Source of the DNA: Fimbriimonas sp. | Lineage (GTDB): Bacteria; Armatimonadota; Fimbriimonadia; Fimbriimonadales; Fimbriimonadaceae | Assembly: GCA_031292555.1 (NCBI GenBank) | Contig: JARLGV010000032.1 | Location: 70,651-110,926 of the forward strand | Length of the DNA: 40,276 nt | Direction: 5' to 3' | Part shown: positions 7,437 through 40,059 of the stretch, one piece after another | Numbering within the stretch: the stretch's first letter is position 1 | How the letters are laid out: every line of letters starts with the position of its first letter | The notes under the pieces: model-generated | Databases searched by the model: none | Seen by the model: the letters and a program-made list of their open reading frames with translations, nothing else | What the model was told of the DNA's origin: nothing | Program-made: the position numbers and the translations under genes

Positions 7437-8474
7437 CTACTTGCCGACGACGACGATCGAGAACGAGCCAGGAATCATGGCGCGTCGTTGACGTCCTCCG
7501 GCAGGAGCGTCACCAGTCGGAGCCGCATACTCGGCGGCGATCAGGTAGACCTTGCCGGTCTTGGGGTCCAGGGTGCATGTTTTGGCGCCGGTCATCGTCT
7601 TGACCTCCTGCTCGACTTCGAAAGTCGTCGGGCTGGTCTCCTTGACGATTGTTAACGTGCCGTTCCCGTGCGAACTGAACGCTTCCTTGGTTTTGGCGTT
7701 GAATACCACACCGTCCGAACCGCCTGCGAGCGGAACGTCCGCAAGGTATTTGCCAGTCCTGGAGTCAAGCATGACCATCACCTGCGGTTCTCGGCAGGCG
7801 ACGAAGAGCACGTGATTCTTGATGTCCAGACCCAGGCCTGCACAGCCGTCGCCTTTGCCATTGAGGGAATAGGTCGTCTCGAGCTTCATCGCCTTGGCAT
7901 CGATAACGCCGACTGCGCCCTTGTCCTCCAGGTCCACATAGATATGGCCCTTTCCGTCCGACTGAGCCTGCTCGGGCGCTCCGCCGAGATCGATCGTGCC
8001 GAGAACGTTTCCCGTTGCGGCGTCGATGACGGTTGCATTCGGCGCCCCGTGACTAAAGATGTAGATTCGGTGGTTGAAGGCATCGCATAGGATTCCGTCA
8101 GGACCACCGTCGACGTCGATCGTCTTGATCGGCTGGTTGGTCTTGGTGTCCCACATGGCAACCGGCTTACTTGAAGCAAATCCATGATGCGACTTCGGAT
8201 CCACTGCAACGCCGTGGGCGCTGGCTTTGGGGATCTCGGTGATCGCGGCGAGCGTGTCGAGATCGAATACCGACACGCGGGGGTTCTGTCGGCTCCGGGC
8301 GATGTATAGTCTTCGTCCGTCTGGGTCGGCATAGACGTAGTCGAAGCCACCGTCGCCTCCGACTTTGGCGGTTTGTAGTATATGGTAGGGTCCGTCGGCA
8401 GGGGCCATCCGGCTGGTTGCCGCGTTCGCGCAGACTGCGAGACCGGCAAGAAGTGAAAGGGTTATCACGCGCAT
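7437..8474 (-). CDS. Secreted YVTN/YncE-like beta-propeller protein
   Basis: A 345-residue protein with a clear signal peptide (MRVITLSLLAGLAVCANA, residues 1-18) and repeated propeller strands such as FDYVYADPDGRRLYIARS, VSVFDLDTL, KTNQPIKTIDVDGGPDG, NHRIYIFSHG and DAATGNVLGTIDLGG. These fit a 7-bladed YVTN/YncE-like fold. Such proteins are periplasmic or secreted and their molecular role is usually unknown. The frame stays open to 8756, but that upstream part would overlap the divergent gene at 8701 and lacks sense. ATG at 8474 has a GGAG Shine-Dalgarno 9 nt before it and is followed at once by the signal peptide, so I chose it. Confidence 0.8.
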   Translation of the reverse strand: MRVITLSLLAGLAVCANAATSRMAPADGPYHILQTAKVGGDGGFDYVYADPDGRRLYIARSRQNPRVSVFDLDTLAAITEIPKASAHGVAVDPKSHHGFASSKPVAMWDTKTNQPIKTIDVDGGPDGILCDAFNHRIYIFSHGAPNATVIDAATGNVLGTIDLGGAPEQAQSDGKGHIYVDLEDKGAVGVIDAKAMKLETTYSLNGKGDGCAGLGLDIKNHVLFVACREPQVMVMLDSRTGKYLADVPLAGGSDGVVFNAKTKEAFSSHGNGTLTIVKETSPTTFEVEQEVKTMTGAKTCTLDPKTGKVYLIAAEYAAPTGDAPAGGRQRRAMIPGSFSIVVVGK

Positions 8475-8700
8475 GAAGTCATTCTCCGGCATGAACTCTA
8501 TCACGCAATCAGTCGGCATTAGGTTAAAACATTGGCGGATTCGCCATAGCAGGCTGATTTGCGGGTGTGGCTTGCGAGCGATCGGCCCAGGCACGAGTTT
8601 TTCCGTTGATACGCACTTCTCGCAAAACCGGCACAGTATAAGGTGACGCCAGGTTAAATGGTGAGGAAGAGAGTCACGCCAGACCACCGACCGACGGACC

Positions 8701-10770
8701 ATGAGTAACGAGAGCACGCAACCGACCCAGATTGCCCACATCCTGTTTCTGGACATTGTGAGTTGGTCTCGCCAGTCGATCGAAGCTCAGGGCAGGCTGC
8801 TTGCCGAGCTTTCACGCCTTGTCACCGAGTGCCCTACATTCAAGCGTTCCAAGGCTGAAGGCAGTCTCTTGGCCTTTCCGAGCGGGGACGGAATGTGGAT
8901 CCTGTTCACCGGTGATCTGGCCTCGCCGGCTCGCTGCGCGGTGGAACTCGCCGGTCTCTTGAAATCCGTGCCCGACCTTTCGGTGAGAATGGGCATCCAT
9001 AGTGGGCCTGTTCGATTTCAGACCGATATCGCAGGTACGCGAACCGTGGTTGGCGACGGCATTAACATGGCAAAACGGGTCATGGACATGGGAGACGGCG
9101 GGCACATCGTCCTCTCATCCCAATATGCTTCCTGGCTGAGACAGTTTGAGGAGTGGGCACCCTTCGTGAAGCCCTTCGGCTTTGGTGAGACAAAGCACGG
9201 GGAACAGCTTGAGCTGTTCACGCTAGCCTCGAACGACTTCGGCAGGACCGATCCATCGAGTCATATTACGCCCGCAGCTAAGCTTCCTGCCGCTGGCGCT
9301 GCGTCGACCGGCCTGAGGATCGTCGTGGTCTATCGCCGAAACACCCTGCCTGACGAGCAACTGGTGGCTACCTTGGAATCGGGCCTCGCTTCCGAGGGAT
9401 ACGAGGTATTTGTCGACCGGCACACCAAGATCGGCATCGATTGGGCGCAGGCCATCGAAGAGAAGATCCGCCAGTCAGATGCAGTGCTTGCCGTGCTTTC
9501 GGAAGCGGCAATGGGTAGCGAGATGCTCGAATTCGAGTTGGAAAAGGCGGACGACGAGCGACGAAAGCGCGGCAAGCCCGAGATCATTCCGATTCGGGTC
9601 GGTTCGGATCGAATTGTAGAGGGTCCGGTTGGCTCTTACGTGAATGGCCTAACGGCATTCGTGTGGCGAGATTCTGCCGATGATCGGCGGCTCCTGGCCG
9701 AACTCCGGTCTACCGTGTCCAAGGAACCCAAGCCTGTGGCCTCCGAACTCCATTTGGAGCCAGTCGGTGGCGCCGTTCCGCCTGACTCGCCGTTCTACGA
9801 GGAACGTGCATCGGATACCGAGTTTCATGCAGCCCTACGCGCTCACGAGAGCATTGTTCTGATCAAGGGCCCTCGCCAAATGGGCAAGACCTCCCTAATT
9901 GGACGCGGAGCGCGAGATGTCCGAGATCAGGGCTGGCGGATGGTTTCCACCGATTTCCAGAAGCTGAGCAGCTCTCAGTTGGTATCAGACGACGCATTCT
10001 ATAAGCTTCTTGCCGCGACCATCGCGCGTCAGCTCAAATTCAAGTTCGATTTCGATTCCGAGTGGCTGGACGTTTTCGGCGCGAACATGAACCTTGACAA
10101 CTTCGTTCGTACCCTGCTGGACGAGTCGGACGAACCGCTCGTCTGGTTCATGGATGAAGCGGACAAGCTATTCGGTGTCTCCTTTGCGAGCGACTTCTTT
10201 GGGTTAGTACGCTCATGGCACAATTCGCGTGCCACCGAACCTGGCGGTCCCTGGTCTCGTTTCACCGTCGTGATCGGGTACGCGACCGAGGCCCACCTGT
10301 TCATTCAGGATTTGAATCAGTCGCCGTTCAACGTGGGGAGGCAAATACCGCTCCAACCGTTCAACCTGGACCAGATATGGGATCTGAATGGCCGGTATGG
10401 CAAGCCACTTCTAGGCCTCTCGGATGCGGAGACTCTTCACCAGTTGGTCGGTGGCCAACCGTTCTTGGTGCGGCGGGCTCTCGATGCCATCGCCCGGGGG
10501 CAGGTTGACTTTGGCGAGTTGGTCGCGAATGCGGATCGCGACGACGGCGTCTTTGGAGACCACCTTAAGAGAATCCTACTCTCGGTAACCCAACTGCCCT
10601 CGGTGCTCTCCGCTCTTCGTCAATCTCTAACCCATCCTGATATGAGCGCTCAAGCGGATGGCATTCAGCGCCTATTGGCCGCCGGCGTCCTGAAGCAGTT
10701 GCCCGACAATCGGCTTGTATTGGCTAACGAACTCTATCGCCGGTATCTCTCGGCCCAAATTCGCGAATAG
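8701..10770 (+). CDS. Class III nucleotide cyclase - TIR - STAND-like ATPase fusion protein
   Basis: A 689-residue, probably cytoplasmic three-domain protein. Residues 11-175 are a class III cyclase homology domain. Metal-binding D18 (FLDIV) and D63 (SGDGM) and the transition-state pair N122/R126 (NMAKR) are present. The two purine-specifying positions, usually Lys and Asp, appear to be F59 and T115, so the product is not predictable. Residues 205-300 are a TIR domain, with a strand-1-like VVVYRRNT, S267, and E279 at the place of the NADase glutamate (SEMLEFE). Residues 350-689 resemble the AAA-like/STAND ATPases, with Walker A GPRQMGKT (390-397) and Walker B VWFMDEAD (481-488). It ends 12 bp from a convergent cyclic-nucleotide-binding gene. 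The arrangement recalls signalling or anti-phage proteins, but that role is inferred. The Shine-Dalgarno is weak and the leader is long. Confidence 0.85.
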   Translation: MSNESTQPTQIAHILFLDIVSWSRQSIEAQGRLLAELSRLVTECPTFKRSKAEGSLLAFPSGDGMWILFTGDLASPARCAVELAGLLKSVPDLSVRMGIHSGPVRFQTDIAGTRTVVGDGINMAKRVMDMGDGGHIVLSSQYASWLRQFEEWAPFVKPFGFGETKHGEQLELFTLASNDFGRTDPSSHITPAAKLPAAGAASTGLRIVVVYRRNTLPDEQLVATLESGLASEGYEVFVDRHTKIGIDWAQAIEEKIRQSDAVLAVLSEAAMGSEMLEFELEKADDERRKRGKPEIIPIRVGSDRIVEGPVGSYVNGLTAFVWRDSADDRRLLAELRSTVSKEPKPVASELHLEPVGGAVPPDSPFYEERASDTEFHAALRAHESIVLIKGPRQMGKTSLIGRGARDVRDQGWRMVSTDFQKLSSSQLVSDDAFYKLLAATIARQLKFKFDFDSEWLDVFGANMNLDNFVRTLLDESDEPLVWFMDEADKLFGVSFASDFFGLVRSWHNSRATEPGGPWSRFTVVIGYATEAHLFIQDLNQSPFNVGRQIPLQPFNLDQIWDLNGRYGKPLLGLSDAETLHQLVGGQPFLVRRALDAIARGQVDFGELVANADRDDGVFGDHLKRILLSVTQLPSVLSALRQSLTHPDMSAQADGIQRLLAAGVLKQLPDNRLVLANELYRRYLSAQIRE

Positions 10771-10782
10771 AACGAATCGAGG

Positions 10783-11253
10783 CTATTCGGTGTAGATCCA
10801 AGGATCGGCGAGTTGGCCCCGTAAGTCCTCAATCGTCTCGGACGCCTCGCGAAGTCGCATGGAAAGCACGCGCGCCAGGTTGCTCAGCATGATGAACCCG
10901 ATCTCTTTGTTCTGATACATGAACTGACGGAGAACTCTACCGTCGATATGCGCATACGTCAAGGACGCCTTGGAAATAACGTATGCCGAGCGAGGCTGAT
11001 TATCAACCAGGGAGATCTCGCCGATGACAGAACAGGGGCCGCGTTCGCCCAGCAGGGCCCCGCCCTTTCGATAGACCATCGCGATTCCGTCGAGGATGAT
11101 GTAGAGATCTGGGTCGCGGGCTCCCAGTTTAACGATCTCATGGCCACGGCTGACGACCTCGAGCTTTGCTAACTCGGCTACCTTGGCGATGTCCTCATCG
11201 GAAAGGCCGACGACCAGATAGTTCTGCTTGAACATTTCGAGATTGACTTCCAT
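10783..11253 (-). CDS. Stand-alone cyclic-nucleotide-binding domain protein (CRP-like, no DNA-binding domain)
   Basis: A 156-residue protein made of one cNMP-binding beta-barrel. The phosphate-binding cassette is complete: IGEISLVDNQPRSAYV (about 77-92), with E79 expected to bind the ribose 2'-OH and R88 the cyclic phosphate. The RSA order is as in E. coli CRP. After the barrel only a helix (about 115-150) follows; there is no helix-turn-helix, so it is not a normal CRP/FNR regulator. It could be a sensor or regulatory subunit. It is convergent with the cyclase-TIR-ATPase gene, with 12 bp between the stop codons, so a functional pair (cyclase plus receptor) is plausible but not shown. ATG at 11253 is preceded by TAGGAG about 12 nt upstream. 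Confidence 0.85.
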   Translation of the reverse strand: MEVNLEMFKQNYLVVGLSDEDIAKVAELAKLEVVSRGHEIVKLGARDPDLYIILDGIAMVYRKGGALLGERGPCSVIGEISLVDNQPRSAYVISKASLTYAHIDGRVLRQFMYQNKEIGFIMLSNLARVLSMRLREASETIEDLRGQLADPWIYTE

Positions 11254-11364: not shown

Positions 11365-12612
11365 TCACCGCAATCCGTGGGCAACCGCAAGCACGAACTC
11401 ATCTTGGATGGCACGGGCCTCGGCGGAGGAACAGCCAAATTGATTCAGAATGATGCTCACTACGACCTTCTTGCCAGAGTCGGTTGTCAAATAGCCGGAG
11501 AGTGAAGCCACCATATCGAGACTGCCAGTCTTGGCATCGAACTGGAGCCCTTTGAGCCGGTTCGATAGCGTCCCGTTCCCGGGATGGGCGAGCGCATGAT
11601 GCCAGAAGTCTCCCGTTGGCTGCTTTTGTTCCCAGCACAGTAGCCTCGCGATGGCTCGAGTTGTAACGTAGTTGTGGCGGCTCATGCCGCTGCCATCGAA
11701 GACGTGAACATCCCCTGGTTCCACGCCCACGATCCGAGTCATGAAGTTCTCAAGTCTCTTTCGCGAGACGGTGTACGGATCTTCGCCCAGTTCGCCCTCA
11801 GTTCGAGCGCCCATTAGTAGTAGGTTCTCTGCGATGTTGTTGTCGCTTGGCGGAAGACATGCCGCAACCATGTCCTTGGTAGTGCCGCCTGTAATTACGT
11901 AGTCGGCAGTTCGAACCGGAATCTCAGTCGTTCTCGTAACCGAGTGACCGAAGATCGACCCGGCCGCAAGATCTGGTTCCGGCAAGGCAAGCGTGTCCAA
12001 CCGTTCGTTGGCTGCCGGCATTTCGCCCGAAATCTCAAGTCGGCGTCGGATCGGATCGTATTGAATCTGGGGCCTGCCCTTTCCGCCCAGGAACTTCACG
12101 TTTACGCCGAAAGCTTCCGGCTCCAGCCGAAAGCGTCGCTTTCGGCTCCAGGCCTCAAAGCTCCCCCGATCGAAGGTAAGGGCCGAAACGGCTGCCGCGT
12201 AACGATTGGGCAGGTCGTCGATCTCCCAACTGTCCGGGATTTCCGGAGCATATGCCTCGTGCAAAAACACGGGCGACCGGCCGTCGATTCCCAGCGCCAC
12301 CTTTGCTTGCTGTAGCGCAGCGTAAGTCATTAGCGGATCCCCCGGACAGTCGATGACGATTCGATCCTCGGACTTCCAGAAACTTGTCTTTGGCCGATAG
12401 TCCGGTCCGAGCGCCCAGAGCGCAAATGAGTTGCTGAGGAGTTTTTGGTTGCTAGCTGGCACCACGTGGGCGTCCGAATCGTGCCGGTAGATGGGCGCAC
12501 CCTCCAAGTCAGTTACGATGGCCGAGACCGTCGCGCCACCCAGTTTTGGATCAGCGAGAATGCGGTCAAGGTCGGTCGGAGCGAACGTTTGGTATGCGGT
12601 AGCGAAGAGCAC
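11365..12612 (-). CDS. dacB: D-alanyl-D-alanine carboxypeptidase/endopeptidase, PBP4 type (peptidase S13)
   Basis: A 415-residue penicillin-binding protein that trims or cuts peptidoglycan peptide cross-links. All three active-site motifs are visible: S54-N-Q-K57 (SxxK), S256-D-N258 (SxN) and K361-T-G363 (KTG). The long spacing between SxxK and SxN reflects the inserted domains typical of PBP4/DacB. The odd point is the N-terminus: only LFATAYQTFA precedes the mature-like sequence, too short for an ordinary signal peptide, although the enzyme must act outside the membrane. The GTG start at 12612 has a TAAAAT box 6 nt before it and no Shine-Dalgarno, so a leaderless start is likely. The HEAT-like gene upstream ends 32 bp away. 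Confidence 0.88.
   Translation of the reverse strand: MLFATAYQTFAPTDLDRILADPKLGGATVSAIVTDLEGAPIYRHDSDAHVVPASNQKLLSNSFALWALGPDYRPKTSFWKSEDRIVIDCPGDPLMTYAALQQAKVALGIDGRSPVFLHEAYAPEIPDSWEIDDLPNRYAAAVSALTFDRGSFEAWSRKRRFRLEPEAFGVNVKFLGGKGRPQIQYDPIRRRLEISGEMPAANERLDTLALPEPDLAAGSIFGHSVTRTTEIPVRTADYVITGGTTKDMVAACLPPSDNNIAENLLLMGARTEGELGEDPYTVSRKRLENFMTRIVGVEPGDVHVFDGSGMSRHNYVTTRAIARLLCWEQKQPTGDFWHHALAHPGNGTLSNRLKGLQFDAKTGSLDMVASLSGYLTTDSGKKVVVSIILNQFGCSSAEARAIQDEFVLAVAHGLR

Positions 12613-25878: not shown

Positions 25879-25882
<4 letters not shown>
25812..25882 (+). other. 5' arm of the 23S precursor processing stem, with boxA-like site
   Basis: This ~70-nt arm pairs with 28819-28887 along almost its whole length, for example CTTTGAAAGTTGCA and GATTGAATAGAAG with their perfect complements downstream, then TATCGA and TCGAAAGA. 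Such stems are cut by RNase III to free pre-23S rRNA. The arm also contains GCTCTTTGAAA (25814-25824), close to the antitermination boxA consensus TGCTCTTTAACA. Confidence 0.8.
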
Positions 25883-28818
<2,936 letters not shown>

Positions 28819-28823
<5 letters not shown>

Positions 28824-28887
28824 TTTGGCCTCTTTCGATGGTTCGATATTTTCTTCTATTCAATCATGTGCAACTTTCAAAGCGCTT
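28819..28887 (+). other. 3' arm of the 23S precursor processing stem
   Basis: The complement of 25812-25882, lying between 23S and 5S. The stem therefore encloses 23S alone and the 5S is outside it. Confidence 0.8.
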
Positions 28888-28901
28888 TAGGCGCTGAACA
28901 G

Positions 28902-29023
28902 TTTCCGGGTGACCATGGCGAGGAGGTCACACCCGTTCCCATCCCGAACACGGCAGTTAAGCTCCTCAGCGACGGAAGTAGTTGGTCCGCAGGGTCCCGC
29001 GAGATAGGTGCGTCGCCCGGTTA
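28902..29023 (+). rRNA. rrf: 5S ribosomal RNA
   Basis: About 120 nt. A perfect 9-bp closing helix (CCGGGTGAC with GTCGCCCGG) and the conserved CCCATCCCGAACACGG loop and GATAGGTGCG 3' region are present. It lies 78 nt after the 23S gene, with no tRNA in between. Confidence 0.93.
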
Positions 29024-33081: not shown

Positions 33082-33124
33082 TCGGCCAACTCCGGGCTCG
33101 CGTAGGCCCGGGTGGGAGATGGTT

Positions 33125-35938
33125 ATGAGTATGGGCCTTCGTCTCTCCAAAACCGTTTGGGCTTTGCTAACGGTCACGATCGTAGGTTGCGGCGGTGTCA
33201 CTCCACGAGGCGGCGGCCCCCTTAACTCGCCGGGACCAAATGCACCAACGGGAACGGCCATCGTGACGGTCGACACTAGAGCGGGGACGGTTTCAGTAAA
33301 GAAGCTGCGAGGGCCGGCTGGTTCTATGGCGGTGTTTACCGGCACAGCCGTTACGTTCACGACGAGCAATCTTTTAAACGATGTGGGAGAACTTTCCACA
33401 AGCGTTATCCAGGTTCAGCTTACGAATAACCAAAGCCAACCAATCGGTGGATCGTTCGGGTTCAACGTATTGTTTGGTCCATTTACCAACCTATCTGCGC
33501 CAACTCTCGACCTCAGGTCACTCACGACTGTGACCACAATCGCCGGAAATGGCACGACCGGCTACAAGGACGGCAGCGGAGTGAGTGCATCCATAAAGGG
33601 GCCCTCTGGTTTGTTGTTTGACTCGCAGGCACCGGCCGTCTATTTCTGTACCGCAGACGGACGAATTAGAAAATACAAGGCTGGCACGGTTTCGACGGTC
33701 GCCGGCGGCGCAGGCAGTCTGCTCAAGGGACCCGCTGGGCTTGCCTTCGCTACCGGGTTATCGGGGCTTCCTGATAACAGCAATATTTATGTCGCTGACT
33801 CGGTTGCAAACCAGGTTTTCTCGGTGAACGTCGCGACTGGCGTCGTCACCTCGGTCGCCGGCTCGAGTACCTCAGGATCTACCGATGGGTCACCGTCATC
33901 TGCGACTTTCAGCGCTCCGACTGGTATTGCCGCTGGAACCCAGGGCTTCTATGTAGCCGATAATGGCACGGGCAAAATTCGCTTCCTATCCTATACGCCG
34001 GGGATCGGAATCACCAATGTTACGACAGTCGCGTCCGGGCTTTCGAAGCCTGCAGGAGTCACTGTCTTTGGCACTAATGCGGCCGCCGGAACCGATGGGT
34101 ATCTTGGCGTCGCCGAAACAGGTAACAACTGGATCGACGTCTACCAACTTGGCGTTAGTAATTCCCCATTGGGTTCGCCAGCGGTGATTGGAACCGGAAC
34201 GGCAGGCACCACCAATGGAATGGGGGCCTCCGCAACATTCACGGCTCCGCAAGGCATTACCGCGGGCAATGGCGCTCTCTTCGTGACCGATACTGGCAGC
34301 AATGAGATTCGTCAGTTGTCGCTCATGGCCAGTGGTGGTGCTACGTCAGCAGGAAACTGGCTCGTCACGAGTCTTGCCGGATCGGGCACTGCAGGTTCTA
34401 GCGACGGGAACGGAAACACGGCAACTCTGAATGCGCCGTCGGGCATTCTCGCGGACCTGAACGGCAATCTGGTTATTGGCGACACGTCGGCAAATCTCCT
34501 TCGGCGAGTCGTTCCAACGAATGGATTCTTTCCCATCCAGGTGAATGGAGCAACCGGGACAGTACCGGCCGATAGTGTTCGTCTGGCGAACCCGACTGGT
34601 TTCGTCCCTACGAACACGACCAGTTCGCCATACATATCGGAGCACTTTGCGATTGCGCCAGGTCAAACAGTCTCACTACATCCTTGGCAACTCTATATTC
34701 CCCAAGGAGTTAGTCTCTTCCAATTCACTGTCACGGTCGAGGGCGACACGCAATATACTGAGCCAGTAGGCGCAGTTCTGAATCCCGGACCTTCCTATGC
34801 TCCTGGCTCTCCTTACGTAAATGTCCGAACTCTGACTGGGGCGCCATTGTCATCTTTCAACAATGGAACCCTTGACCAAGCAGGGTTTGGTGGCCTGAGT
34901 GGCGCAGCGATTGACAGTGCCGGAAACCTCTATGTAACTGACTCGGTGAACAACGCGCTTAGGTTCATCTCTCCCAGTGGCAACGTGTCTACGATTGTAG
35001 GCGTGCTAGGTACCTCAGGAGCGCTGGACGGTGCTGGATCGGCGGCAGAATTTAGCGGCCCGACTGGGATCGCTCTTGGTCCCTCTGACCCCGCGAACCC
35101 GGGTGGCATCGTCTTATACGTCGCCGACTCTGGCAACAACACTATTCGGCGGGTTACCAGTAATCCGGGCGCGCTAGACCTTAGTGTTGCTGGGAACTAC
35201 ACTGTATCGACGATCGCGGGAGAGCCGGGAGGCGCCGCCTACGCCAGTGGTTCAGGAAATCTCGCGAGATTCAATCAGCCCTGGGGCATTGCCATCAGTG
35301 AATCTGGGGAGTTGTTTGTTACAGAGACCGCCGGCAATCGTGTCCGTCACTTAGTTCCTGTAGGTTCGAACCTATCCAGCCCAGCTTCGTGGATGGTCTC
35401 GCTCTATGCGGGTGACGCATCGGCTACCGCTGGAACTGCTGGCGTTACCAACGGGATCGGTGCCAGCGCTCGTTTCAGCGCGCCGATGGGAATTGCCATT
35501 GCTGCATCAGGTGAGTTGTATGTCGCCGACACGCTCAACTGCAGAATCCGCAAGATAACCGTGGGCGCTAACGTTTCGATCTTCTCTGGCACGCTTGTTG
35601 GATACGTTGACTCAGATACGCCTACTACGGCTGAGTTCAAACAGCCGGTAGGTATCGCGGTCGATCCCTCCGGGTACCTGTTCGTTACGGACAAGCAGAA
35701 CACCTACGTACGTCGCGTAAGCCCAACAGGTGGGGCGAGGACTGTGGCTGGAACCGGGACCGCCGGTCTGTCAGACGGGACAGGTGCGACGGGCCAGTTT
35801 GGCGCAAGCCTCGCCGGCATCTTGGAGAAGCCAGATGGAGACATAGTCGTTTGCGATGGTACACGCCTAAGGTTGGTTGAGCGTGTCATTTCGACCGGGA
35901 CGTCGGGTTCACCGCTTATCGGACCTAAGGCAAAATGA
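33125..35938 (+). CDS. NHL-repeat lipoprotein with two propeller arrays
   Basis: 937 residues. The signal ends in a lipobox (TIVGCGG, Cys at 22), so it is probably lipid-anchored outside the cytoplasm. A beta-sandwich-like segment comes first (about 45-120). Then NHL-type repeats of the form GPSGLLFDSQAPAVYFCTAD and VSTVAGGAGS follow (about 125-465), a second sandwich-like spacer (about 470-590, SLHPWQLYIPQGVSLFQFTV) and a second NHL array (about 610-925). The spacer resembles the N-terminal segment, so the protein may be an internal duplication. NHL propellers bind proteins or glycans; no ligand is evident. ATG 33125 is preferred over 33119 because GGGAG sits 6 nt before it. Its stop overlaps the next start as ATGA. 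Confidence 0.8.
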   Translation: MSMGLRLSKTVWALLTVTIVGCGGVTPRGGGPLNSPGPNAPTGTAIVTVDTRAGTVSVKKLRGPAGSMAVFTGTAVTFTTSNLLNDVGELSTSVIQVQLTNNQSQPIGGSFGFNVLFGPFTNLSAPTLDLRSLTTVTTIAGNGTTGYKDGSGVSASIKGPSGLLFDSQAPAVYFCTADGRIRKYKAGTVSTVAGGAGSLLKGPAGLAFATGLSGLPDNSNIYVADSVANQVFSVNVATGVVTSVAGSSTSGSTDGSPSSATFSAPTGIAAGTQGFYVADNGTGKIRFLSYTPGIGITNVTTVASGLSKPAGVTVFGTNAAAGTDGYLGVAETGNNWIDVYQLGVSNSPLGSPAVIGTGTAGTTNGMGASATFTAPQGITAGNGALFVTDTGSNEIRQLSLMASGGATSAGNWLVTSLAGSGTAGSSDGNGNTATLNAPSGILADLNGNLVIGDTSANLLRRVVPTNGFFPIQVNGATGTVPADSVRLANPTGFVPTNTTSSPYISEHFAIAPGQTVSLHPWQLYIPQGVSLFQFTVTVEGDTQYTEPVGAVLNPGPSYAPGSPYVNVRTLTGAPLSSFNNGTLDQAGFGGLSGAAIDSAGNLYVTDSVNNALRFISPSGNVSTIVGVLGTSGALDGAGSAAEFSGPTGIALGPSDPANPGGIVLYVADSGNNTIRRVTSNPGALDLSVAGNYTVSTIAGEPGGAAYASGSGNLARFNQPWGIAISESGELFVTETAGNRVRHLVPVGSNLSSPASWMVSLYAGDASATAGTAGVTNGIGASARFSAPMGIAIAASGELYVADTLNCRIRKITVGANVSIFSGTLVGYVDSDTPTTAEFKQPVGIAVDPSGYLFVTDKQNTYVRRVSPTGGARTVAGTGTAGLSDGTGATGQFGASLAGILEKPDGDIVVCDGTRLRLVERVISTGTSGSPLIGPKAK

Positions 35939-38900
35939 GCCAGGGGTACCGAAAGGTTGCTCGGCCCCGAATTTCGGATCGGGGCCGAGTCTGTCGGTTG
36001 GCTAGCTTCCTTTTGGCTTGCGCCGTTTTGCTTGTGTCTTCGTCTTCGATGGCGATGGCGTTCGGGGCGACCAAGCAGGCTAGTCCGACGTTGAGCATCT
36101 TGGACGTTTTCATGGACGACCAAGGGACGAGTGCGTCTTCTCGAATCGGCCGGGAAGTGCTGGCTCCGGGAGGCTTGTCGGGTAACCAGCGGATTCACGT
36201 CATTGTGCTGAATTCGAGTCTGTCGGCTCAGCCGACGACCGGGACTTTGTCACTGGTGACGACGGACGTGACGGGCGCGACGAATTCTACGCCCGGGGTT
36301 TCGATGAGATTCAGCTTGGCGTTCAAGTCAGGTACGACGGACGTGTGGGCTCCTGCGACGGCGGTGTTTCCTGACGCGCTTGTAAACCCAGCCCAGTTCG
36401 GCTCGTACTCGTTCAATGGACGCCTGTTCCAAGTGGCCGCGAAGTTAACGGCGGCCTCTCAATCGGCTTCGAGCTTTTCGACGACGGTGAACCTGGACGG
36501 CCTGGGTGTTCCGGATTGGATGTGGGATATGAGGCTCGCTTACTACTCCACTCCGAGCGGTCTTTATCCTCCGTTCCCCAAGTTGTGGCAGCCGTCTCAG
36601 ATGTGGAACCCAAGCTATATGGGCGCCGCCCAGAGCGATTTGCAGACGCTAGACAAGACGTACGGGTTCAACACCTTCCTGGTGGGTGAGTTCTTCAAAG
36701 TCAGCAGCTTGAGCGCAAACGTCAACAACGACTACTTCGCCTTTTTGCATACGCTCTCGCTGAGCGGGGCGATCGGCGACTACTTGAGCCATCACGTTTG
36801 GAATCCTTCTGGCGGGGGCTTTACTTTTCCGAGCGTCAGCTATAGTTTTCCTCCAACGTATTCTTCGATAGGCGCCATCCAGTCGCTGGTCGGCTACATC
36901 CACGCTTTGCCGGGAACGCCTCACGTCATCGCCTACACGGATCCGTCGGTCCTTTCGGTCGAGTCCATCGGCGCGCCTTTCTCTCCGTATACGAAGAAGA
37001 TGTATGCCACCAAAGGCACAGACTTTTGGGGCAATCCGGTAGCGGTTCCGTTTCGTGCCGTCGAGACGATGAATCTGGCTTCGTTCTGGCTCGCGATGTG
37101 TTGGTCTCCATTCCGAGACTATTTCAACTACGTTGGTGACGACGAGGAACTTCCCGACGTGTCGGTGTTGGCGGTCCTCTTTCCAGAAGCCGCCGGGATC
37201 ATCGCTGTCATCGAAGGGGTCATCGAGACGATAAACGACATCTATAACGACCTCCATTTGGCGTATCAGGCTGACGCACTCCTAAACGGCTATGACTTTG
37301 ATGATCCTCCTCGTTTTCTGAGCGAGGTGGCTGGGGACTTGCCGAACTTCGGTCCGGCGTACCAGTCCGCATCGGCGAGCGACATCTCGAATGCGGTGAA
37401 GACTTACGGGTTTGACGCGGTGCTTGCCGACGATACCGGTCGGCCACTTCAGAAGCTTCAAACGGGCAGTGCCGCAGTGACGCTGATGTCGGTGGCCTTG
37501 GTAGACGTCATCGACATCATGTCGGCTATCGCCTCCCAATTTCCGCTTCACGGATTGATTCAGAGCGCGTTTGAGAACGTAGTGAACACCCTCGTTTCCA
37601 TCGGGTATTCGCAATTGGACAGTTTTGCGCTCTCGGTACCGGTGACCGACAGTCCGTTGTACGCAACAGATGCGGGAACCGATTGGAACGGGATCTCGGC
37701 GACGACTGCCGGCATTCGTTCGGGCATCAAGACCGCGCGCGGCACTTTCGGAGGCGGACTGATCTCGAGCGACTACTTCGACGTGTGGACGAATTTGACG
37801 CCGACAGGGAAGCCTTATCTTCCTGCTCAAGCGCTTGCCGAGGACGTTCCCAGCACTGACCAATATGCGCTTTTCTCGACCGCCTTCGCAACGACCGCGT
37901 ACGACGCCAGACGGATTACCCGCAAGCCGTTCAGAACCGACACGAAGGATTCGGATCTATTGCTGGGAGGTTTGCTTTACAACTCGGCTCGAGCACGTTC
38001 GATAGAGACGGGTTTGGCTTGGGCTCAAGGAACGACCTTGGAGAATTCGGGAGACGCTCTTCTAAATAGATGGGCGGATACGAGCGTTCAACAAGTCGTA
38101 CAATCCCTGAACTCTCTAAGGGCTCAGCGTCCGAACCTGTTCGATTCGCCTTCGGGCGCGGTGAACGCGAGTCCGATGGAACTGTGCTTCCACAGCTTTG
38201 GAAGCATCTTGGCTCAGATACCGTCGGGACAAGTCCTGAAGTTGTCGTCTTCGACGCACGATATCGCGGACTACGGTTTGAACAAGATCGTGACGACCGC
38301 GTATCGGCAGACGCTTGTGACTCCGGAGGGAAGTTCCGCTCCGAATTCGACGACTCGGCGTTATACGATCTTCCTCGTCAATACGATGGATAGGGACAAG
38401 GGCCGATCGGTCGGTTCGGGAACGGAGGCCGTCAAGCTGACGATCTCGCTCAACAGCCCCGAGCATTTCGTTTCCGGTTTGAACGCGCTTGCTTACGTCC
38501 CCCAGGGATCTGGCTACAACATGGTTCCTGTCTCTATCGGTCAGGGGTCTAGTTCAACGGTTACGGTTCCTGTCGACACGGTGACTGTCTTGCAGTTTTA
38601 CACCCAGGTTGCCACCGTTTCGAACAACGACGTCGTCCTCGATCCCCTTTCTTCCTTCTTCGTCACGCCAACCTCAGTCGTTGGTGGTGCAACTGTGCAT
38701 TTAACTGTGGGTATTTCCACGCCGGCTCCGGTTGGCGGCGTCACTGTTTCACTCTCAAGTTCATTGCCTGGCGTGGCACCGATTGTTGCGTCCATTACGA
38801 TACCGGCGGGGCAGTCGATCGCCGTTGTCAACGTGCAAACTACGCCAATTCAATACTATGCGGAGGTCACGTTCACAGCGTCCAACCTAGGCACGAGCCT

Positions 38901-40059
38901 TGCCGCGACGCTGACCGTTTCCAAAGGGCCATCACTAAGTGTTACGCCTTGGCCGAAGTTTCGAGCGAGCCAAACAAATGGCGGACTTAGTTCGGGATCC
39001 GGTTCGGGAGGAAGCAAGTTGTGGGCATATGGAAGCGGCCTTTCTACTTCAAGTCCTGTCGTGGGCGCCAAAGGGGTCGTCTACTTCACGGGGCAGACCA
39101 ACGGACCAGGGTATTTCCCATACTACTTCAATCTCTACAGAATAACTGACGGGGTAGGCAAAGCTCTTTTTACGGGGGGTGCTTCTTGGGGCGTTCACTA
39201 TACGGGCGATCTTCTGTTCAATTCGACACCTGCGCTCGCCAACGACGGCACAGTCTATTTTGGCACTTGGGACGGTAACCTCTATGCGGTTAGTTCCGAC
39301 GGCTCAAAGAAATGGGCTTTCCAAACAGGTGGTGATATCGACTCCAGCCCTGCAATCGGTCCGGACGGAACGGTGTACATAGCATCCACGGACCATAGTC
39401 TCTATGCGATCGATCCAGCCACCGGTTCTAGGAAATGGGCCTTCCCCACAGGGGGACTCATTTTGTCTAGCCCAGCAATCGGACTAGACGGAACGATCTA
39501 CATCGGTTCGTACGACAAGCGATGGTACGCTGTTGACCCCTTAACTGGTCTAGCTAAGTGGTCGTTACTTACCCAATATGGAATTGATACGAGTGCCGCA
39601 ATTGGTCCAGATGGCACCGTTTATTTTGGGTCAAGTGAAGGCAATCTCTACGCGATTGACCCGAAAACTGCAGCGAGGAAATGGACTTCCTATTGTGGGT
39701 TCGGCGGCATTGTGTCTAGTCCAGCCATAGGCCCAGATGGAACGATCTATGTTGGGTCCAGTGACTTCAATCTCTACGCTATCAACCCTAAGGATGGCTC
39801 GCAAAAGTGGGTCTTTCCTACAGGCGGGCTAGTATATTCCAGCCCTGCGGTCGGCGCAGATGGAATCATCTATCTCTATACTGTCAAAGGGCTATGTGCA
39901 ATCGACCCGGCTCACGGTGAGCTTCGTTGGAGTTATGCAGGTGCCTCGAGCGGCTTCGAACGGAGTCCGGCGATAGGAAGTGGAGGAACCGTCTATATCA
40001 CGGATGGGTCTGGCAACCTATTTGCTCTCGATTCGGTAGCCAGTAATACGCGACATTGA
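35935..40059 (+). CDS. Giant exported protein with Ig-like domain and C-terminal PQQ-type propeller
   Basis: 1374 residues. A basic start and hydrophobic segment (about 21-42, LASFLLACAVLLVSSSSMAM) form a signal peptide. Residues 50-880 are a large region I do not recognise, with aromatic-rich parts such as VPDWMWDMRLAYYSTPSGLY. Residues 895-995 look like an Ig-like sandwich (FFVTPTSVVGGATVHLTVGI). From about 1000 to the end, eight repeats of the type SSPAIGPDGTVYIGSSDxNLYAI with W-x-F-x-T-G-G between them form a PQQ-like propeller. Tryptophan docking is of the PQQ/BamB type, but no dehydrogenase catalytic site is seen. The start overlaps the NHL gene stop (ATGA), so coupled translation is likely and the two proteins probably work together at the cell surface. 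Confidence 0.78.
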   Translation: MSQGYRKVARPRISDRGRVCRLASFLLACAVLLVSSSSMAMAFGATKQASPTLSILDVFMDDQGTSASSRIGREVLAPGGLSGNQRIHVIVLNSSLSAQPTTGTLSLVTTDVTGATNSTPGVSMRFSLAFKSGTTDVWAPATAVFPDALVNPAQFGSYSFNGRLFQVAAKLTAASQSASSFSTTVNLDGLGVPDWMWDMRLAYYSTPSGLYPPFPKLWQPSQMWNPSYMGAAQSDLQTLDKTYGFNTFLVGEFFKVSSLSANVNNDYFAFLHTLSLSGAIGDYLSHHVWNPSGGGFTFPSVSYSFPPTYSSIGAIQSLVGYIHALPGTPHVIAYTDPSVLSVESIGAPFSPYTKKMYATKGTDFWGNPVAVPFRAVETMNLASFWLAMCWSPFRDYFNYVGDDEELPDVSVLAVLFPEAAGIIAVIEGVIETINDIYNDLHLAYQADALLNGYDFDDPPRFLSEVAGDLPNFGPAYQSASASDISNAVKTYGFDAVLADDTGRPLQKLQTGSAAVTLMSVALVDVIDIMSAIASQFPLHGLIQSAFENVVNTLVSIGYSQLDSFALSVPVTDSPLYATDAGTDWNGISATTAGIRSGIKTARGTFGGGLISSDYFDVWTNLTPTGKPYLPAQALAEDVPSTDQYALFSTAFATTAYDARRITRKPFRTDTKDSDLLLGGLLYNSARARSIETGLAWAQGTTLENSGDALLNRWADTSVQQVVQSLNSLRAQRPNLFDSPSGAVNASPMELCFHSFGSILAQIPSGQVLKLSSSTHDIADYGLNKIVTTAYRQTLVTPEGSSAPNSTTRRYTIFLVNTMDRDKGRSVGSGTEAVKLTISLNSPEHFVSGLNALAYVPQGSGYNMVPVSIGQGSSSTVTVPVDTVTVLQFYTQVATVSNNDVVLDPLSSFFVTPTSVVGGATVHLTVGISTPAPVGGVTVSLSSSLPGVAPIVASITIPAGQSIAVVNVQTTPIQYYAEVTFTASNLGTSLAATLTVSKGPSLSVTPWPKFRASQTNGGLSSGSGSGGSKLWAYGSGLSTSSPVVGAKGVVYFTGQTNGPGYFPYYFNLYRITDGVGKALFTGGASWGVHYTGDLLFNSTPALANDGTVYFGTWDGNLYAVSSDGSKKWAFQTGGDIDSSPAIGPDGTVYIASTDHSLYAIDPATGSRKWAFPTGGLILSSPAIGLDGTIYIGSYDKRWYAVDPLTGLAKWSLLTQYGIDTSAAIGPDGTVYFGSSEGNLYAIDPKTAARKWTSYCGFGGIVSSPAIGPDGTIYVGSSDFNLYAINPKDGSQKWVFPTGGLVYSSPAVGADGIIYLYTVKGLCAIDPAHGELRWSYAGASSGFERSPAIGSGGTVYITDGSGNLFALDSVASNTRH

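Follow-up and report, generated by a model that had tools for sequence, protein, structure and literature searches.

Gene A encodes a cyclase-TIR-STAND protein next to a cyclic-nucleotide-binding protein

The window, by which we mean the whole 40,276-nucleotide stretch of Fimbriimonas sp. DNA analysed here, contains two convergent genes that lie 12 bp apart from stop to stop (Table 1). Gene A encodes a 689-residue protein in which Pfam recognizes a class III cyclase followed by a TIR domain and then by an AAA_35 STAND ATPase, and its neighbor encodes a 156-residue cNMP-binding protein. Both ORFs are conserved in the congener G005, with 70% identity for the 689-residue protein and 76% for the 156-residue protein, and therefore they are not chance ORFs. 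A scan for promoters and terminators around the gene pair gave nothing above chance.

Table 1. Coordinates of the gene pair, the domains of gene A and an adjacent landmark in the window.
Feature	Position	Strand	Basis
Gene A, class III cyclase-TIR-AAA_35 (STAND) protein, 689 aa	8701..10770	+	ORF, Pfam, AlphaFold model
Class III nucleotide cyclase domain, residues 8-178; metal Asp D18 and D63, R126, F59	8722..9234	+	Alignment, fold match
TIR domain, residues 205-343; candidate catalytic E279	9313..9729	+	Pfam, alignment, fold match
AAA_35 STAND NTPase and C-terminal winged-helix part, residues 351-686	9751..10758	+	Pfam, motifs, fold match
Single-domain cyclic-nucleotide-binding protein, 156 aa, long C-helix	10783..11253	-	Pfam, alignment, fold
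First gene of a conserved chromosomal block (S13 peptidase ... ClpB), a landmark outside the system	11365..12612	-	

Gene A matches Pfam AAA_35 (E = 6e-71, residues 357-684) and TIR_2 (1.2e-16), and its Guanylate_cyc match (1.5e-4) falls exactly at Pfam's cut-off. This weak cyclase call was settled by the AlphaFold model (mean pLDDT 88), in which residues 8-178 align with solved class III cyclases at Z scores of 18.9-19.8 and rmsd values of 2.0-2.4 (Ma1120, Z 19.8; Rv1900c, Z 18.9). TIR residues 205-343 of the model match the TIR domain of TIR-APAZ (8i87) with Z 17.5, and ATPase residues 352-685 match the STAND-type protein 2qen with Z 21.5. The ATPase carries Walker A (GPRQMGKT) and Walker B (MDEAD) motifs, and on this domain and these motifs we assign gene A to the AAA_35 STAND NTPases. 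An earlier note on this DNA had read cyclase, TIR and ATPase domains in one protein; the ORF, Pfam and fold matches agree with that reading, and its numbering of D18, D63, N122, R126 and E279 and its call of both Walker motifs are right.

The top Foldseek PDB chain was the plant TIR-NLR RPP1 (7dfv; E 8.5e-12). This match spans the TIR and ATPase half in a long alignment, whose high rmsd is unsurprising in a multidomain chain. The likeness is structural only (identity 11-15%), which rules out a plant NLR as a close relative. Gene A shares with plant TIR-NLRs and Avs STAND proteins the layout of TIR, nucleotide-binding domain and winged helix, but differs from them by its additional cyclase and by having no LRR or other sensor repeats. 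Pfam and the model both show the chain stopping at residue 689, directly after the ATPase/winged-helix part, and thus the C-terminal sensor repeats of one-chain NLR- and Avs-type proteins are absent. The earlier proposal that sensor, cyclase and effector are merged in one chain consequently fails for the sensor, for which the candidate in relatives is a separate, membrane-anchored AAA_35(-WD40) protein. The window feature is real and interesting, and belongs to the AAA_35 STAND kind as a variant form. AAA_35 (PF14516) may correspond to the Npun2340/2341 family, a member of the MNS clade that Leipe is said to have named in 2004. The Npun2340/2341 family is mentioned within that clade by Burroughs 2021 (PMC8195603).

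The cyclase and TIR active sites are conserved among relatives

Nearly all members of an alignment of 44 related Armatimonadota cyclase domains retain the cyclase residues D18, D63 and R126, and E279 is kept in 37 of 38 related TIR domains. Degenerate sites in homologues would have spoken against the earlier note's reading; instead, the catalytic residues of both domains are conserved among relatives. Given the fold and the pair of metal-binding aspartates, the first domain is a class III cyclase with predicted cyclase activity. Likewise, the TIR fold and catalytic glutamate place the second domain among TIR-domain NADases, with predicted cleavage of NAD. Both activities of gene A are deduced from conserved residues and should be read as predictions.

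The likely substrate is less easily read. The position of the purine-selecting lysine, four residues before D63, is occupied by F59 in gene A, whereas adenylate cyclases have Lys there; most of the 44 relatives have Pro, Leu, Asp or other residues. Because F59 is neither Lys nor Glu, the gene A cyclase is predicted to be neither a canonical adenylate cyclase nor a canonical guanylate cyclase, and the base is not readable from sequence. Non-canonical residues around the base-selecting positions are also found in solved PycC enzymes, which does not thereby identify the base (PMC11224242).

AAA_35 proteins form two co-evolving clades, mostly encoded by adjacent genes

Across the roughly 125 loci that we fetched and mapped, the gene family takes two forms: "A" proteins, which end in AAA_35, and "B" proteins, which start with AAA_35 and usually continue into WD40. 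When the count is restricted to A genes flanked on either side by 2.5 kb or more, a B gene lies within 1.5 kb of A at 56 of 66 Armatimonadota loci. By type of A, B is adjacent at 12/18 cyclase-TIR, 6/7 cyclase-only, 6/7 TIR-only and 32/34 other loci. The AAA_35 domains of A and B fall into two separate clades (SH-aLRT 100), and the A and B trees mirror one another across 61 thinned pairs (r = 0.756, against a maximum of 0.277 in 5000 permutations). These data suggest that the A and B clades are both ancient and have evolved together, with the mirror-tree correlation perhaps partly reflecting shared lineage.

A transmembrane helix is predicted just after the ATPase, and preceded by basic residues, in 57 of 78 B proteins, and anywhere in the chain in 4 of 91 A proteins. 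Where this segment crosses the membrane once, B would have a cytosolic ATPase and an external sensor. WD40 is not the only kind of C-terminal domain in B proteins; amidase, peptidoglycan-binding, GUN4 and PAS/GAF domains also occur there. An external sensor fits the amidase and peptidoglycan-binding C-termini of some cyanobacterial B proteins; GUN4 and GAF do not decide the matter. One such B-type protein, encoded on Nostoc plasmid NZ_CP046708.1 (L181, 8565-12893) and annotated only as an amidase, combines AAA_35, WD40 propellers and a C-terminal peptidoglycan amidase.

A two-gene operon of two STAND proteins with GT4/HEPN effectors has been described (Burroughs 2021, PMC8195603), and it resembles the A/B pair in that one of its two STAND proteins has variable effectors. 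The two arrangements differ in STAND family, and one NTPase is eroded in the published operon, whereas GK[ST] and an acidic Walker B motif are retained in most A and most B members. We found no published description of sister-clade A/B pairing with mirror trees, of the cyclase-TIR-AAA_35 form or of SARP-WD40 pairs, in a search of freely accessible papers.

The window gene has a predicted B partner on another contig

No B gene adjoins window gene A, either in the window or in the 11.3-kb and 6.5-kb flanks examined. Its own genome contains six AAA_35 genes, three A (the window gene on contig C87, and one each on C109 and C27) and three B. The B genes on C109 and C27 each lie beside their A, and the B gene on C107 (L091) is unpaired. 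In the tree, the C107 protein groups at 100% with the B that adjoins the G005 orthologue of the window gene, and with an unpaired B from G008. We also compared distance profiles in the five genomes whose fetched loci include an A and a B that are each unpaired. The profiles match at 0.64-0.87, and by trace the correct A-B assignment ranks second of 120, the sole better one swapping two similar profiles. The window gene therefore belongs to the A clade and has a matching unpaired B in its genome, although not an adjacent one. The tree grouping and the profile match make the C107 protein our predicted sensor partner for window gene A in trans, with shared lineage as the confounder. The B beside the G005 orthologue has no recognizable WD40.

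G008 has no A of the window type, so a B of this clade can exist without one. In G008, an unpaired B gene neighbors both a second WD40 gene, whose AAA_35 is truncated, and a gene for a CRP-type regulator (L173, 6695-13356); this may be what is left of a locus from which the A gene has disappeared.

The absence of a neighboring B could also mean that the window gene is a decaying orphan, which lost its sensor during rearrangement and has the cNMP gene as a neighbor by chance. The genomic site is relevant to this idea. In G005, G019 and G004, the block that lies to the right of the pair and runs from the S13 peptidase to ClpB occurs intact at another place, where the pair is absent. The left-hand block of the window is largely collinear with another contig of G019. 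The blocks are thus separate in relatives, and the pair sits exactly where the two ancestral blocks meet, having stayed together while its surroundings changed. Congeners G004 and G019, moreover, have the cNMP gene without the cyclase gene. Against decay, gene A has kept every active-site residue and a full-length ORF, the pair is still together in G005, and the divergence of gene A from its G005 orthologue is like that of core genes. We consider an orphan in decay very improbable.

Other features of the window were also inspected. The gene at 7437-8756 encodes a secreted-looking beta-propeller protein and was rejected as the missing WD40 sensor: it has no ATPase, and its orthologues in four congeners occur without the gene A cyclase beside them. 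Two large adjacent proteins with NHL and PQQ-type beta-propeller repeats are encoded at 33119-40059. The window also contains 23S and 5S rRNA genes at 25882-29021, and no 16S gene reached the gathering score within 5900-31100, so the rRNA operon may be split.

The cNMP-binding neighbor and the resemblance to Pycsar

The 156-residue protein matches cNMP_binding at 1.7e-10 and has an intact phosphate-binding cassette, in which G78, E79 and R88 are invariant among 17 sequences. It adopts a CNBD fold with a dimerization helix; the nearest folds are mycobacterial CRP and GlxR, and the CNBD of PycTIR is also close. The protein ends after the C-helix, and Pfam and the sequence reveal no HTH, TM helix, TIR or nuclease effector. 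It therefore shares the CNBD, cassette and dimerization helix of CRP/FNR regulators (Mtb CRP, GlxR) but lacks their C-terminal helix-turn-helix. ORF, Pfam and alignment thus confirm what had been noted from the DNA: a convergent single-domain cNMP protein 12 bp away, with a complete cassette and no DNA-binding domain. Phage records contained no match to this protein.

The locus recalls Pycsar (PycC with PycTIR or PycTM) in that it brings together a class III cyclase, a TIR domain and a cNMP-binding domain. The locus might accordingly encode a three-tier defense in which infection triggers synthesis of a cyclic pyrimidine, the cNMP protein is its dedicated receptor or regulator, the TIR domain kills within the same complex, and B is the sensor. 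This is the earlier note's idea with sensing reassigned to B. The best PADLOC matches of the 156-residue protein are indeed Pycsar effectors (E 5.6e-13), and the base-selecting positions of the cyclase are unlike those of adenylate and guanylate cyclases. The PADLOC PycC model, however, matches the gene A cyclase only at E = 0.02 (12 bits, residues 89-174 only). In addition, the TIR domain is fused to the cyclase rather than to the cNMP domain, the chain also contains a STAND ATPase, and the neighbor is a single CNBD instead of a separate cNMP effector fused to TIR or TM. The inverted Pycsar layout proposed earlier was not borne out, given an equivocal PycC match and a neighboring receptor that has no effector part.

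We asked how consistently cyclase and receptor genes occur together. The pair is the sole syntenic segment between the 111-kb window contig and a 75-kb contig of G005, where a B gene comes next after it. It is thus kept as a unit in two genomes (G000, the window's own, and G005) on contigs that otherwise share nothing, which favors a Pycsar-like unit, as does a single-domain cNMP protein encoded 3.3 kb from A in G174. G005 is nevertheless the only congener in which the two genes stay beside each other, the cNMP gene standing alone elsewhere. The closest relatives of the 156-residue protein, in 13 other genomes, had no cyclase of gene A's family in the stretch fetched. Moreover, a cNMP gene lies within 4.5 kb at only 3 of 16 adequately flanked CYC-TIR-AAA_35 loci, and is missing at the other 13, so we rejected the 156-residue protein as a general partner of this protein type. 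The conserved neighborhood expected from the initial reading therefore holds for G005, where the pair persists without other shared synteny, and not for any fixed partnership.

More broadly, cNMP-domain genes lie within 4.5 kb of 6/21 cyclase-bearing A genes and 0/35 others (p = 0.0017), in a test that ignores relatedness and comprises about four independent cases. The background is 45 such genes in 49 Mb, or 0.91 per Mb. This pattern supports a general link between the cyclase and a cNMP receptor, as the earlier note had suggested, in that cNMP-domain genes occur near AAA_35 loci only where A bears a cyclase. In the case of the receptor encoded in the window, three genomes, two of them related and one distant, provide the support.

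Without the flank filter there are eight neighboring cNMP proteins, five of which are CRP regulators with an HTH, as judged by Pfam for L152 and L154 and read from sequence for the remaining three. At these five loci (L151-L155, in genomes G006, G081, G084, G020 and G082), the A protein is a cyclase-AAA_35 without TIR, accompanied by a large AAA_35 B-type partner with the CRP/FNR regulator on the far side. As regulators, these five were rejected as Pycsar effectors, and they count against a Pycsar-like defense. On balance, we regard such a three-tier system as unlikely.

Stand-alone class III cyclase genes adjoining CRP-type cNMP genes were also observed in the window's own genome (contig C51; L092, 5310-7622) and in G004 (L095, 7180-9208), with Pfam applied to the C-terminal HTH in L092 only. 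These loci are a small second-messenger module in the same genus as the window.

Exchangeable outputs and the distribution of the family

Most of the other A proteins checked carry N-terminal SARP-type DNA-binding and BTAD modules. Further modules are Ser/Thr kinase, TIR and cyclase domains, with LuxR HTH in some, and the A/B family members on cyanobacterial and Chloroflexota plasmids have CHAT, trypsin-like and kinase modules. STAND conflict systems are reported to include fused TIR, kinase, caspase-like and trypsin modules (PMC8195603); the modules fused to AAA_35 (PF14516) NTPases, the family of gene A, match this list. The family is patchily distributed (24/85 family genomes at E<=1e-60), and plasmid copies adjoin toxin-antitoxin and restriction genes. 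A distant TIR-AAA_35 relative with 32% identity occurs on a contig listed as viral (L180, IMGVR_UViG_3300031236_000894).

Because the exchangeable outputs include SARP, the platform does not serve defense exclusively. The A/B chassis could instead read a cell-envelope cue in general stress or developmental signaling and alter expression or metabolism, with cyclases and CRP-type receptors as ordinary second-messenger parts. The prevalence of SARP-BTAD outputs, the occasional kinase and LuxR HTH, the pairing of several cyclase loci with CRP/FNR regulators, and the range of B C-termini are all consistent with this explanation. In contrast, TIR, CHAT and trypsin outputs, patchiness, and plasmids near toxin-antitoxin or restriction genes are typical of conflict systems. 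We judge signaling of this general kind to be rather less probable than not as the role of the window gene. Several outputs, the patchy distribution and plasmid carriage nevertheless point toward defense, which is a plausible role.

A model for gene A as executor of a two-STAND relay

Together, these results lead us to favor, with some reservation, a two-STAND relay in which the 689-residue protein (A) serves as the executor half. Such a relay would operate like a split NLR, with one STAND protein as sensor and the other as executor. The membrane-anchored B protein, with its AAA_35 domain, one TM helix, and WD40 or another C-terminal sensor, would detect a signal and engage A through ATPase-ATPase contacts. 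Class III cyclases work as dimers, and TIR enzymes as higher oligomers. ATP-driven oligomerization of A could thus pair its cyclase domains as dimers and bring its TIR domains into a higher oligomer. The output would be a cyclic nucleotide together with NAD cleavage or an NAD-derived signal.

At the window locus, the 156-residue protein might buffer or read that cyclic nucleotide, although we are inclined to doubt that it binds the product of the gene A cyclase. The oligomerization, the pairing in trans, the topology of B and the role of the cNMP protein are all deduced steps of this model. Given the TIR, protease and plasmid associations, the purpose is most likely arrest triggered by stress or phage. 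A bolder version treats the system as an analogue of paired sensor/executor NLRs, in which a membrane STAND-WD40 receptor triggers a STAND executor whose cyclase and TIR fire together, producing NAD depletion and a cyclic nucleotide that is read by a dedicated single-domain receptor. This version is improbable in our estimation.

The AAA_35 A/B chassis is a general signaling platform, since it also carries SARP transcription activators. It is a widespread two-gene STAND system that appears to divide sensing from execution: one of its two co-evolving ATPases carries interchangeable outputs (cyclase, TIR, kinase, protease or transcription factor), and the other carries interchangeable sensors. 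The partner predictions, including the trans partner on another contig, are directly testable. If the model is true, then a single switch would set off both cyclic-nucleotide signaling and a TIR NADase, linking Pycsar-type and NLR-type immunity.
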